64,000 nt of DNA from Methylobacter tundripaludum SV96 (lineage in GTDB: Bacteria; Pseudomonadota; Gammaproteobacteria; Methylococcales; Methylomonadaceae), in contig NZ_JH109152.1 in NCBI RefSeq assembly GCF_000190755.2, positions 1,958,485 to 2,022,484 on the forward strand. The letters run 5' to 3'. The translations under genes and the position numbers were made by a program. This document shows, piece after piece, positions 18,219 through 25,747 of this stretch; the first letter of the stretch is position 1, and each line of letters opens with the position of its first letter. The notes below the pieces were generated by a model, which worked only from the letters and a program-made list of their open reading frames with translations, was not told the origin of the DNA and made no database searches.

Positions 18219-18238
18219 GATAGAACTCTTTTAGATCA

Positions 18239-18340
18239 GGCGAAAGGTTAAGGGCGAAGGGCAAAGGACGAAAGGCGAAAAAACCGAGCTTCAAAATTAG
18301 GTCAACCTTTAGCCCTTCGCCTTTCGTCTTTCGCCTAAAC
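18239..18340. repeat. Purine-rich inverted repeat, family A copy 1 (guaB-guaA spacer)
   Basis: The spacer consists almost entirely of two inverted arms built from GGCGAAAGG / GGGCGAAGGGC units (18239-18280) and their complement (18298-18337). The same units recur in the leader-peptide codons of gspG, gspH and gspJ. The element sits inside the guaB-guaA transcription unit and may form a large RNA hairpin. Confidence 0.8.
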
Positions 18341-20383: not shown

Positions 20384-22066
20384 ATGGCATATGAATCGTT
20401 GTTAACCGTTTTGCAGCATAGACAGAAGCTTTCTGCCGCAGAATTAAAAAAAGTCGAGCGCGTACAGAAGACATCTGTATCGGAAAGTGTGCCGCAGTTG
20501 CTGGTCAAACTGGGGCTGTGTTCGGAGCTTGATGTAGCCGACGCTTTTGTTGAATCGGGCCGCTTTGAAAAGGTTACACCGGATCACTATCCGCTGGAAA
20601 TGCAGCTGCCGGAAACCGTACCGTTACGGTTTTTAAAAAACTACCATGTCATCGGCTTGACTCACAATGACGACATCACCGTTGCACTGATGGACCCCGA
20701 AGACCGCTTTGTCATTGACGCGTTAAAGCTGGCGACCGGAAAAAACATCATCGCCAAAGTCGGCCTGCTTTCGGAAATCGATGCGGCGCTGGAAGTGCAG
20801 TATGGCGAAGGCCGCTCGCAAATGGATAAACTCGTTGACGATCTGGCCGTCGATGATCTGGGCGAGGAAGATCTGGAGCATTTAAAAGACTTGGCCAGTG
20901 AAGCGCCGGTGATCAAAATGGTCAATTTGATCATGCAGCGGGCGATTGAAAGCAGGGCCTCGGATATTCACATCGAGCCCTTTGAGCAATCGCTAAAAGT
21001 CAGGCTGCGTGTCGATGGCGTGTTAAAGGAAATAGACGCGCCTTCGGTCAAATCCACCGCAGCGGTGATTTCGCGGGTCAAGATCATGGCCAAGCTGAAC
21101 ATCGCCGAGCGCCGTCTGCCGCAGGATGGCCGCATCAAAGTGCAAATGCTGGGCAAGGAACTGGATTTACGGGTTTCGACCATACCGACGATGTACGGCG
21201 AAAGCGTGGTGATCCGCTTGCTGGACAAGGAAACTACGGTACTGGATTTTGCCGCACTGGGCTTTTCCGGCAAACATTTGCAGCAGTTTATCGAGGTACT
21301 GTCCCAACCGCACGGGATTATCCTGATTACCGGCCCTACCGGTAGCGGAAAATCCACCACGATGTATGCCGCGTTAAAACAACTCAACACTTCCGAGCGA
21401 AAAATCATCACCGTTGAAGATCCGGTCGAATACCAGATGGACGGGGTCAATCAGATTCAGGCAAAACCGCAAATAGGCCTAACCTTTGCGTCGGCGCTGC
21501 GTTCTATCGTGCGGCAAGATCCCGACGTAATCATGATCGGCGAGATGCGCGATCTGGAAACCGCAAGAATCGCCGTGCAATCGGCGCTGACCGGGCATTT
21601 GGTATTATCGACGCTGCATACTAACGATGCGGCCGGCGGTGTAACCCGCTTGCTGGATATGGGCCTGGAAGAATACCTGCTCACCTCCACCGTTAACGGC
21701 ATATTGGCGCAACGCCTGGTAAGAAAACTGTGTCCTGCGTGCAAGCAACGCTATACGCCATCCCAAGACATTATCGACGGCATGAGATTAAGGCGGTTTA
21801 CGCCAGAAGGCGATATTGTTTTATACAAACCTGTAGGTTGCCCGTCATGCGGGGGTTTAGGTTACCGCGGGCGGCTGGCGATTATCGAGTTTCTGCAAAT
21901 GACCGATCCGCTCCGCAAATTGATTATGGCGCATGAAGAAGCCGGAGCCATTCAAAGACTCGCCATTGAGGAAGGCATGACAACGATGTACGAAAACGGC
22001 TTGGTCAAAGCCCTGCAAGGCATTACCACGCTGGAAGAAGTGCTACGGGTCACGTCGGAAACCTAA
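20384..22066 (+). CDS. gspE: Type II secretion ATPase GspE
   Basis: Cytoplasmic hexameric ATPase that drives pseudopilus assembly. The 560 residues comprise an N-terminal T2SSE_N domain (about 1-150), then the RecA-like core with Walker A GPTGSGKSTT (about 320), Asp box ITVEDPVEYQMDG, Walker B-containing DPDVIMIGEMRD, and the His box LVLSTLHTNDAAGG. A tetracysteine zinc module (CPACKQRY then CPSCGGLGYRG) lies near 455-495, the hallmark of GspE/PilB-type ATPases. First gene of the gspEFGHIJKLM-C/N-D operon. Confidence 0.96.
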   Translation: MAYESLLTVLQHRQKLSAAELKKVERVQKTSVSESVPQLLVKLGLCSELDVADAFVESGRFEKVTPDHYPLEMQLPETVPLRFLKNYHVIGLTHNDDITVALMDPEDRFVIDALKLATGKNIIAKVGLLSEIDAALEVQYGEGRSQMDKLVDDLAVDDLGEEDLEHLKDLASEAPVIKMVNLIMQRAIESRASDIHIEPFEQSLKVRLRVDGVLKEIDAPSVKSTAAVISRVKIMAKLNIAERRLPQDGRIKVQMLGKELDLRVSTIPTMYGESVVIRLLDKETTVLDFAALGFSGKHLQQFIEVLSQPHGIILITGPTGSGKSTTMYAALKQLNTSERKIITVEDPVEYQMDGVNQIQAKPQIGLTFASALRSIVRQDPDVIMIGEMRDLETARIAVQSALTGHLVLSTLHTNDAAGGVTRLLDMGLEEYLLTSTVNGILAQRLVRKLCPACKQRYTPSQDIIDGMRLRRFTPEGDIVLYKPVGCPSCGGLGYRGRLAIIEFLQMTDPLRKLIMAHEEAGAIQRLAIEEGMTTMYENGLVKALQGITTLEEVLRVTSET

Positions 22067-22087
22067 TGCTATTAGGATATGCCGACT

Positions 22088-22364
22088 TTAATAGAACACA
22101 GATGACGGGGGTGGTTACGCTGGTTCCCAAGCTCCAGCTTGGGAACCCAGTTGACGAAGCTCCAGCTTCGCGAGACGGAAAGCTGGAGCTTCCCGCACCG
22201 AATTCCCAAGCTGGAGCTTGGGAACTAGCAAAAACGGAGCAAAGATTTAGCTTTATCAGCGACAATCCGTCAAATCCGCGTCATCCGTGTTCTCGGCAAC
22301 CGCTCCTGCGTTGCTCTACCTCCTGCATCCCTGCAGTCGTATTCTTTTGCTGCTGAGTAGTCGT
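22088..22364. repeat. Composite nested repeat between gspE and gspF (families G, H and F)
   Basis: The outer frame is a family G element: left end TAATAGAACACAGATGACG at 22089-22107, right arm ATCCGCGTCATCCGTGTT ending near 22291, and terminal TTGCTGCTGAGTAGT to about 22362. Inside are three units of the GCTCCAGCTTGGGAAC palindrome (family H, 22122-22225). A family F element (CTCGGCAACCGCTCC to GCAGTCGT, 22292-22340) splits the right end. The same F element interrupts an unrelated palindrome at 58880-58978. The composite fills the only long spacer within the gsp operon. Confidence 0.8.
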
Positions 22365-23591: not shown

Positions 23592-24065
23592 ATGAAAAAA
23601 ATATTAAGGCACGAGGCGAAAAAGGCAGGCTCTTTGCGCCTTTCGCCTTTAGCCCTTCGCCACCGCGGTTTTACCCTGCTTGAATTATTGGTGGTGCTGG
23701 GCATTATTGCGATGCTGGCCGGGATAGTCGGGCCGCAGGTTATGAAGCACATGGGCGAATCCAAAACCAAAGCGGCCAAGGTGCAGATTGAAGATCTGGC
23801 GGCCGCCCTGGATATGTACAAACTGGATCTAGGCAACTATCCGAGTTCCGAGCAAGGCTTGAAGGCCCTCATTGAATCGCCCGACAGCGCCAAACGCTGG
23901 AATGGCCCTTATTTGCGCAAAGCCAAGATGCCGTTGGATCCATGGCAGCAGGAATATCATTATGTCGCTCCCGGCGAGCACGGGAAATTTGATTTGTTCA
24001 CCTACGGGGCAGATGGCAAGGAAGGCGGCGAAGGCGAAGATCAGGATATTGTTAGTTGGGAATAA
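23592..24065 (+). CDS. gspG: Major pseudopilin GspG with a repeat-extended leader
   Basis: Main subunit of the T2SS pseudopilus. ATG 23592 follows an excellent AAGAGGAAA. The prepilin peptidase site is G26|FTLLELLVVLG with Glu5 of the mature protein at residue 31. The calcium-site and C-terminal features of GspG (LDLGNYPSSEQGLKAL, GPYLRK, DPWQQEYHY) are all present. The leader is 26 residues, much longer than the usual 6-10. Residues 7-25 are encoded by a family A repeat (23608-23661). The leader is cleaved, so the mature protein is unaffected. Confidence 0.96.
   Translation: MKKILRHEAKKAGSLRLSPLALRHRGFTLLELLVVLGIIAMLAGIVGPQVMKHMGESKTKAAKVQIEDLAAALDMYKLDLGNYPSSEQGLKALIESPDSAKRWNGPYLRKAKMPLDPWQQEYHYVAPGEHGKFDLFTYGADGKEGGEGEDQDIVSWE
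23608..23661. repeat. Family A repeat copy 2, inside the gspG leader codons
   Basis: AGGCGAAAAAGGC at the left and GCGCCTTTCGCCTTTAGCCC to the right are inverted units of the family A element seen in the guaB-guaA spacer (its right arm contains CCTTTAGCCCTTCGCCTTTC). The insertion keeps frame and ends immediately before the Arg-Gly|Phe cleavage site. Confidence 0.82.
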
Positions 24066-24580
24066 TTTTTGAGGCGCAAGGCAAAAGGCGCAAGGCGAAA
24101 GGCGGAAGATGTCTCGTTCCTGCGCGCTACGTGGGAGGCAAGCCGCAGCGCGGCTTTACCTTGCTGGAGTTGACCGTAGTGCTTTTTGTCGTTGTTTTGG
24201 GTTTTTCCGTGATCGGTCTTAACCTGTCATCAGGGAGTGACACAACAGAAATCAAGGCGGCGGCACGAGATATGGTATCGGCGCTGCGTTATGCCAGAGG
24301 CCAGGCTTTAATGACGCATCAAGAAACCACGGTTGCCCTTGATCTTGGTAACAACAGTTACAGGGTCAGCGGTCGGGACAAGCTTTATCAAATACCCAAG
24401 GGTATTGATGTCACCGTGGTGACTGCGCAAACCGAATTAACCGGGGAAGGCACGGCGAACATCCGTTTTTTTGCCGATGGTTCCTCTACCGGAGGAAGAA
24501 TCACGCTGGAGCGGGGACAGACATCGTGGAAAATCGATATAAATTGGTTAACCGGCCAAATTGAGCTTGAAAATGAATAG
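24056..24580 (+). CDS. gspH: Minor pseudopilin GspH with a repeat-extended leader
   Basis: Pseudopilus tip-complex subunit. The cleavage site is RG|FTLLELTVVLF. The most upstream start is a TTG at 24056, with AGGA ten bases before it, overlapping the gspG stop; this gives 174 residues and a 33-residue leader. A GTG at 24131 would leave a conventional 8-residue leader but lacks a ribosome-binding site. Residues 6-18 are encoded by family A repeat copy 3. The body has the GspH/FimT beta fold (YRVSGRDKLYQIPKGIDV, FFADGSSTGGRI). Start uncertain, identity clear. Confidence 0.88.
   Translation: MGIIFEAQGKRRKAKGGRCLVPARYVGGKPQRGFTLLELTVVLFVVVLGFSVIGLNLSSGSDTTEIKAAARDMVSALRYARGQALMTHQETTVALDLGNNSYRVSGRDKLYQIPKGIDVTVVTAQTELTGEGTANIRFFADGSSTGGRITLERGQTSWKIDINWLTGQIELENE
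24070..24109. repeat. Family A repeat copy 3, inside the gspH leader codons
   Basis: A run of GGCGCAAGGCAAAAGGCGCA and AGGCGAAAGGCGG units in one orientation, starting 5 nt after the gspG stop. It is related to the guaB-guaA spacer element and to the copies in gspG and gspJ. Confidence 0.75.
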
Positions 24581-24974
24581 ACAATGCGGCTTTTCTTTAC
24601 TGGAAATCCTGATTGCGTTTTCAATCCTGGCGCTTTCCTTGGGGATTTTGCTGAAGATATTTTCTGCCGGTGTTAATACCGCAGGCGTTGCCGAGGAATA
24701 TACCGCAGCCGTCCAAATTGCTGAATCGCTAATGGCCCAAACAGGCATTGAAGCGCCCTTAAAGCCAAGCGAAGCGACCGGGCTGGAAAATGAAAAATAC
24801 CATTGGCGGGTGTCCGTCAGCCCGTTCCAGTTCACTGCTGAAAATTTAGACGTCACGGCTATAACGGCAGTGCTTTTTAAGATTAAGGTTGTCGTAAGCT
24901 GGGGGGAGGATGCCCGTGCCGCCGGTAGACAGGTTGAGTTAACAACATTGAAACTGGTGAATAAGGTGTTATGA
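24573..24974 (+). CDS. gspI: Minor pseudopilin GspI
   Basis: Initiates the pseudopilus tip complex with GspH, GspJ and GspK. ATG 24573 is chosen over the upstream TTG 24561 because it leaves the standard short leader MNRQCG|FSLLEILIAFS with Glu5. The 133-residue product has the T2SSI domain (EYTAAVQIAESLMAQTG and the YHWRVSV strand). It overlaps the gspH stop by 8 nt and the gspJ start by 4 nt. Unlike its neighbours it carries no repeat in the leader. Confidence 0.93.
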   Translation: MNRQCGFSLLEILIAFSILALSLGILLKIFSAGVNTAGVAEEYTAAVQIAESLMAQTGIEAPLKPSEATGLENEKYHWRVSVSPFQFTAENLDVTAITAVLFKIKVVVSWGEDARAAGRQVELTTLKLVNKVL

Positions 24975-25747
24975 ACGGTACAAGCAAGGCGAAGGGCGAA
25001 GGGCGAAGGGCGAAGCGCCATTCTTCCAGCGCCGCGGCGGGCTTTACGCTAATTGAGGTTCTGATAGCAATGACACTATTAAGCATTATGGTGGTGCTCT
25101 TGTTCAGCAGCTTGAGAATTTGCGCCCAAAGCTGGGAACAGGGAGAAAACAAAATAGCCGAAGTCAATGAGGTCGCCGTAGTCTATAACTTTTTTCAGCG
25201 GCATTTATCCTCAGCCCTCCCTGTATGGAATGATTTTTCCGCCGGGGATGGCGAGTCTGCCGCAAGCCGGGCGGAATCGGGCACCGCGACGGAAAACCAG
25301 AATAAAACATTTTCTTTTCAAGGCAAAAAAAAGTCCTTGCAGTTTGTCTCGGTTTTTCCTGCAAGTGTCGGTAGAGCGGGTATGCAGCTGTTTTCGATAC
25401 AGCCGCAGCAAGAAGATAAAGAACAGGTCATCAAGGTTTCCCTAACACCGTTTTTTCCGGTAACCGAAGGTGAAGAGTGGCACCGGGAAGAGGAGGTCTT
25501 GTTAAGGCATGTCAGCGATTTTACGCTGGCTTATTTTGGCGCTGATGATGAGGGCAAAAGCAGCTGGCAGGATGAATGGCTGGAAAAAGGCGTTCACCCC
25601 CGATTGGTCAAAATCAGCATCAACACGACAAATGGCGTTTTTTGGCCGGAAATGATTATAGCGCTTAACGTTACAGGCGAAACCGGCAGCACAGCGCTTG
25701 AAGGCAACCCGACAAATGTTGCCGCACCGGCGGAGGCCCCCAATTGA
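24971..25747 (+). CDS. gspJ: Minor pseudopilin GspJ with a repeat-extended leader
   Basis: Tip-complex pseudopilin. ATG 24971 overlaps the gspI stop. The leader is 24 residues, ending AAAG|FTLIEVLIAM. Residues 6-16 (KAKGEGRRAKR) are encoded by a family A repeat. The body is 258 residues in total and has the GspJ features WEQGENKIAEV, a long beta-rich central part and LLRHVSDFTLAYF. The segment around 90-105 (GDGESAASRAESGTATENQ) is low-complexity and may be a further tolerated insertion. Confidence 0.92.
   Translation: MNGTSKAKGEGRRAKRHSSSAAAGFTLIEVLIAMTLLSIMVVLLFSSLRICAQSWEQGENKIAEVNEVAVVYNFFQRHLSSALPVWNDFSAGDGESAASRAESGTATENQNKTFSFQGKKKSLQFVSVFPASVGRAGMQLFSIQPQQEDKEQVIKVSLTPFFPVTEGEEWHREEEVLLRHVSDFTLAYFGADDEGKSSWQDEWLEKGVHPRLVKISINTTNGVFWPEMIIALNVTGETGSTALEGNPTNVAAPAEAPN
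24985..25019. repeat. Family A repeat copy 4, inside the gspJ leader codons
   Basis: Tandem GGGCGAA units (AAGGCGAAGGGCGAAGGGCG then AAGGGCGAAGCGCC), the same unit as in the guaB-guaA spacer. The seven-base periodicity means all frames are open and basic residues are produced, so it can be accommodated in a positively charged leader. Confidence 0.8.

Follow-up and report, generated by a model that had tools for sequence, protein, structure and literature searches.

Dispersed heptamer elements in Methylobacter tundripaludum SV96 and their in-gene copies in pseudopilin leaders and the BamB signal peptide

The enterobacterial small mobile repeat units RU-1/ERIC and RU-2/YPAL have been described as fused in frame with genes (Delihas; PMC2759123, PMC2229807), and the Rickettsia palindromic elements (RPEs) have been reported as inserts in 19 protein reading frames, including that of guanylate kinase (PMC2229807). 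The dispersed heptamers GGGAATC of Xanthomonas and GGGGAYT of Nostoc have been reported to form G-quadruplexes and to prefer four units (PMC4692102). Comparison of the Methylobacter element with these systems revealed that (i) like the RU units, it is an intergenic hairpin-forming repeat of which some copies are translated; RU units measure 103–168 bp, whereas each Methylobacter arm is a heptamer array whose length and type vary, and the recipients are the conserved genes gspG, gspH, gspJ, and bamB, the bamB case being common to all same-genus loci read; (ii) like the RPEs, with which it was compared by description rather than by sequence, it is a palindromic repeat found between conserved protein genes and, in frame, inside them, but the Methylobacter in-gene copies found all lie in cleaved N-termini; (iii) like the Xanthomonas and Nostoc heptamers, its unit has 7 bases, occurs genome-wide, is over-represented in noncoding DNA and varies in unit number, whereas many Methylobacter units contain no more than GG, and inverted pairs are common among the copies; and (iv) it shares with REP/REPIN sequences, which are associated with a RAYT transposase (PMC3116915, PMC2817692), the form of short many-copy intergenic hairpins, but none of the 11 Y1_Tnp loci of the SV96 genome has heptamers within about 1.5 kb, and mobilization by RAYT was rejected on this ground.

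The features that differ from the known systems are thus the heptamer hairpin form, the placement of all in-gene copies in cleaved targeting segments, and a genus-wide case in which the sister genera have ordinary signal peptides. Among the open-access matches listed, we found no account of Methylobacter heptamer repeats or of pseudopilin leaders made of repeat, which does not imply that such an account is absent from print.

The heptamer element in the SV96 genome

The window, that is, the whole stretch of 64,000 nucleotides analyzed here, lies within contig C1 (1958485–2022484) of the 4.85-Mb SV96 genome, and among named relatives, Methylobacter gives the best matches to its GspG. The first-pass annotation of this DNA had taken a fixed word as the repeat. 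This had to be revised: the concatenated 19-base word occurs at 0 places with at most 2 mismatches (its reversed control at 1), and the unit is a heptamer, AARGGCG, arranged in tandem. The array AARGGCGAARGGCG, with at most 2 mismatches, matches the window 16 times, compared with 2.63 ± 1.55 expected, and none of 100 shuffles reaches 16. Fifteen of the 16 matches fall in the guaB-guaA spacer and three pseudopilin leaders (Table 1), which agrees with the earlier proposal that spacer and leaders carry the same repeat. The repeat is also dispersed, as had been proposed: with at most 1 mismatch, AARGGCGAARGGCGAA was found at 61 forward and 89 reverse places of the genome (150 in total), and its reversed control at 0. 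About 100 of the 150 places are listed, and the site list is complete up to C1:2686497 only. Given the 28 sites in this fully listed 2.69 Mb of C1, chance would place three of them within 1.4 kb approximately 0.003 times, a rough figure, since sites cluster elsewhere too.

Table 1. Coordinates of heptamer-bearing features and control leader (window positions unless a contig is given)
Feature	Position	Strand	Description
guaB-guaA spacer	18238..18338	.	Heptamer hairpin: forward array, loop, reverse array; usual intergenic form
gspG leader	23592..23669	+	26 residues, before FTLLE; start position common to relatives
Heptamers within gspG leader	23614..23661	+	Forward units 23614-23629, reverse units 23634-23661
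gspH leader	24056..24154	+	33 residues if TTG 24056 is the start; 8 if GTG 24131
Forward heptamer array, gspG-gspH junction / gspH leader	24073..24107	+	
gspI leader	24573..24590	+	ATG 24573, 6 residues, repeat-free; internal control
gspJ leader	24971..25042	+	24 residues; ATG 24971 overlaps gspI stop (ATGA)
Forward heptamer array inside gspJ leader	24984..25015	+	
BamB signal peptide of heptamer hairpin	G000:C1:2911094-2911204 (L190:2495-2605)		Outside the window

Twenty-six copies, including that of the guaB-guaA spacer, are bipartite, with a forward array, a loop, and then a reverse array, and 15 of 40 clusters have heptamers on a single strand only. The guaB-guaA copy forms a long hairpin (DNA fold z −5.21 compared with shuffles). 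With its hairpins or inverted repeats and its many dispersed copies, the element is MITE-like.

Among the places listed, we examined 44 SV96 clusters of at least 20 bases, 40 in 31 genome stretches and 4 in the window. The usual state is the intergenic hairpin. Recognizable genes hold only 4 of the 44 clusters, namely gspG, gspH (if it starts at the TTG), gspJ, and, outside the window, bamB. The other ORFs that overlap clusters are apparently spurious or begin upstream of a gene's likely start and continue in frame into it; two copies, one before a BluB-like and one before an isochorismatase-like gene, are open in this way. Gene calls around these other copies are based on ORF length, and the genes adjoining copies that we take to be DusB-like and BluB-like carry assumed names, a nitroreductase match alone having been computed. 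Eight 14-base matches, which are too short to separate from chance, were left out of the counts; four of them are inside long ORFs (L167, L174, L175, and L176), and two (L174:2465 and L176:2539) belong to 16-base genome places. A signal-peptide-like query gave 34 matches in SV96, of which the 11 inspected are all intergenic as far as ORFs tell, one being open in frame into the isochorismatase-like gene.

A perfect AAAGGCG array encodes the peptide cycle KGERRKA in every frame, because 7 and 3 are coprime, and an array that is stop-free in one frame is therefore stop-free in the other frames of the same strand. We rejected tuning of the element for signal-peptide coding: of 156 frames, 85 are open in real elements, compared with 101 ± 2.6 in elements whose arms were shuffled so that only the composition of each arm was preserved, and signal-like frames are likewise fewer in the real ones (18 versus 27 ± 3.7). 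Arm-shuffled elements are as hydrophobic as real ones (0.91 versus 0.83) and have less basic forward arms (net charge per residue 0.16 versus 0.40). The comparison shows that the hydrophobic reading is a consequence of base composition; the element was thus not made for coding.

Pseudopilin leaders and the BamB signal peptide

In the gsp operon, GspG, E, D, and M pass the NCBIfam cut-off, and H, I, J, F, and K match related models below it; a C-like match is weak, and GspL is assigned from position only. GspG, H, I, and J combine a pseudopilin family match with an FT/S-LxE cleavage site and a place in the gsp operon, and from this motif we infer that prepilin peptidase cleaves their leaders. 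Re-reading of the starts agrees with the leader lengths given by the first-pass annotation for gspG (26), gspH (up to 33), and gspJ (24). Its claim that all three contain the repeat holds for gspG, whose ATG is preceded by AAGAGGA, and for gspJ, whose array has three GGG tracts; for gspH, it holds only if translation begins at TTG 24056, and a downstream GTG start is possible. The leader of gspI is short and free of the repeat, as had been stated, and the same absence was found in all 71 gspI genes of the loci compared. The idea of a general enrichment in class III leaders failed, since gspG, gspH, and gspJ are the only repeat-bearing genes among 14 N_methyl matches in the SV96 genome, the repeat being absent from gspI and from ten other pilin-type leaders.

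The comparison covered 81 gsp loci, namely that of the window plus 80 from relatives, L081 and L088 being from a single genome. Heptamer-like DNA makes up 8.4% of their leader and junction DNA, 0.74% of the DNA coding for mature parts, and 0.21% elsewhere in the loci. It is borne by 19 of 81 gspG, 32 of 76 gspH, and 17 of 71 gspJ genes. In a second set, the repeat occurs in the gspG leaders of 9 of 11 same-genus loci versus 0 of 19 loci of other genera; G110 has an 11-residue leader without the repeat, and G144 scores none. The gspG leader is mostly 11 residues long in other genera, not 6–10 as had been assumed to be usual, and ranges from 11 to 30 residues in the Methylobacter group. Distant orthologs with the same long leader and unrelated DNA, which would have spoken against the first-pass interpretation, were not what the other genera have: their gspG leaders are mostly short and repeat-free.

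The frame is conserved across heptamer-bearing leaders. All 17 heptamer-bearing gspJ genes are in frame, their start codon (ATG in 16 and GTG in 1) overlapping the stop of gspI, and 41 of 54 heptamer-free ones are open in the overlap frame. gspH is open in frame from the gspG stop in 23 of 32 genes with heptamers versus 11 of 44 without (Fisher p = 6e-5, computed on related sequences, so that the counts are not independent), and 9 of the 32 heptamer-bearing genes depart from the overlap frame. Leader length and sequence thus vary among relatives while the frame and the cleavage site are kept, as expected of the safe harbor for repeats that the leader had been suggested to be. The unit type also varies between species (GGCGAAA, GGTTCAA), and G065 has CGA-type leaders within a TTC-type genome. 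A proposed tracking of each genome's dominant heptamer type by its leaders was not borne out (Spearman 0.18, p = 0.42, n = 22; 22 of 33 rows, those with at least 2 leader units and at least 5 genome places, the SV96 row using longer patterns and all other rows 14-base ones). The simplest reading of the leader types would be old, drifting insertions rather than continuing exchange.

Two other stretches were seen in the operon. The gspE-gspF spacer (window 22066–22356) encodes VPKLQLGNP...NSQAGAWEL, a stretch that also adjoins heptamers at L179 and seems to be a second dispersed repeat. The stretch LVPARYVGG after the gspH heptamers (window 24111–24140) resembles same-junction stretches of relatives (LVPTRCVGM in L071) and is possibly another one.

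A repeat-made signal peptide elsewhere in the genome was overlooked by the first-pass annotation. The heptamer copy at C1:2911120–2911186 lies within the N-terminus of BamB (Pfam PF13360), MSNNPTYMSQAKGERRKTKKPFALCLLPFAFTLLTGC. The hairpin (fold z −5.13 compared with shuffles) reads as a lipoprotein signal peptide that is basic, then hydrophobic, and then followed by a lipobox; by hydropathy and charge, a basic n-region, an h-region, and a lipobox Cys precede mature BamB. The bamB loci read were the 30 best-scoring ones from 119 matching genomes. Among them, the repeat-made signal peptide is present in 8 of 8 same-genus loci versus 0 of 22 loci of other genera, which have an ordinary, heptamer-free signal peptide such as MRLITLLLACLVLTGC. 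The 9 sequences aligned (eight same-genus and one outside) have their start codon at a common position, and the counterpart in another genus, of which one sequence was aligned, is shorter. On the BamB tree, the trait has a single origin, appearing as one change with support of 93/86.

The repeat is degenerate in G042, G065, and G097, where one unit per strand is recognizable. The repeat-made h-regions comprise 17–21 residues with a mean hydropathy of 1.8–2.3, compared with 2.4–2.8 in six ordinary ones, and the net charge of the n-region is 0 to 5, the lowest values being those of G042 (0) and G110 (1). BamB export probably depends on the hydrophobic core given by the reverse arm, because no other long hydrophobic stretch precedes the lipobox. 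The bamB copy looks functional rather than merely tolerated and suggests exaptation of a repeat.

Explanations for the in-gene copies

We consider it probable, from the sequence comparisons above, that these are dispersed heptamer elements, usually intergenic, whose in-gene copies, all of those found being in cleaved N-terminal targeting segments, are tolerated there. Methylobacter genomes would be populated, nearly always between genes, by a family of short elements consisting of a purine-rich heptamer array, a loop, and a pyrimidine-rich reverse array, some copies having a single array. Insertions and expansions at gene junctions would be tolerated because the resulting peptide is removed and has only to be basic, as in a class III leader, or basic and then hydrophobic, as in a Sec lipoprotein signal. 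The in-gene copies found sit in the leaders of gspG, gspJ, and probably gspH and in the signal peptide of the lipoprotein BamB. Translation of the purine-rich forward array gives K, R, E, and G, whereas the pyrimidine-rich reverse array yields F, L, P, S, and A, so that a stop-free hairpin, whichever way round it lies, reads basic and then hydrophobic, the layout of a Sec signal peptide. Much of the hydrophobic core in bamB comes from the reverse arm. A purine/pyrimidine hairpin of this kind can be recruited wherever a peptide is required to have no more than a suitable charge and hydrophobicity. Only tentatively do we extend this to a broader claim, that export signals have repeatedly been built from the palindromic heptamer element, which supplied both the BamB signal peptide of Methylobacter and the T2SS pseudopilin leaders.

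The hairpin form between many genes, together with the two heptamer orientations at the gspG-gspH junction of some relatives (e.g., L062, L065, L068, and L070), would also suit gene-junction RNA elements, REP-like hairpins that tune decay or translation between the major and minor pseudopilin genes and lie in the leaders incidentally. We regard this as improbable, given that the SV96 gspH and gspJ arrays are forward only, that the RNA fold of the gspG leader is weakly better than shuffles (z −1.61, with 11 of 200 shuffles as good), and that heptamer-bearing genes retain the frame more often than heptamer-free ones. Local slippage at short words resembling the heptamer that the leaders already contained, with no relation to the dispersed element, is likewise unlikely to be the source. 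The gspG leaders of L064 and L067/L068 are exactly three heptamers (21 bases) apart, the 11-residue leader of L086 has a degenerate heptamer-like word, and leader type does not follow the type of the genome, all of which are consistent with slippage; but the two orientations within the SV96 gspG leader and several gspH and gspJ leaders are not a slippage product, and bamB holds a whole hairpin.

That longer basic leaders are adaptive, altering signal-recognition-particle targeting or prepilin peptidase processing of the T2SS pseudopilins, is quite unlikely in our judgment. The leaders are indeed basic, long ones are kept by several relatives, and other type 4 pilins with long leaders are known (PMC10191384); against this, gspG leader length and sequence vary within the group, and 11 residues suffice in G110 and L086. 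Phase variation, in which gspG, gspH, or gspJ would be turned off by the frameshift that follows gain or loss of a single 7-base unit, fits a unit length that is not a multiple of three, and an association between phase variation and repeats close to N-termini has been described (PMC4692102, citing Lin and Kussell). It is very unlikely here, where the arrays are short and imperfect and every heptamer-bearing gspJ is in frame.

Under the preferred reading, tolerance in cleaved segments, the bamB case is a placed example of a dispersed repeat that has seemingly come to serve a conserved lipoprotein of outer-membrane assembly as its export signal, with ordinary versions in sister genera, and the cleaved T2SS pseudopilin leaders would be a site where such repeats are tolerated and turn over. 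The origin of signal peptides is thereby made testable by simple swaps.

Heptamers in other genomes

Of 151 genomes of the family, 24 contain AARGGCGAARGGCGAA and 36 contain AAGGTKCAAGGTKCAAGG, the reversed controls being found in 2 and 0 genomes, respectively. The 61 forward places in SV96 are all of the former type, and none of the latter was found in that genome. Of 369 genomes sampled from the class, 7, including SV96, contain the longer version of the first pattern, and 1 contains its reversed control. Dense AAGGGCG arrays were observed in G337 (74 places) and G447 (63 places), which belong to another family of the class; these arrays are apparently independent of Methylobacter.

In G015, whose units are AAGGTTC, none of the 21 clusters sampled outside its gsp and bamB loci lies inside picked ORFs of at least 90 amino acids. 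At L197 (G015:C14:28100–29300), reverse TTC-type heptamers end a few bases before the start codon of a second GspG-like gene, that is, upstream of the start codon and outside the leader.
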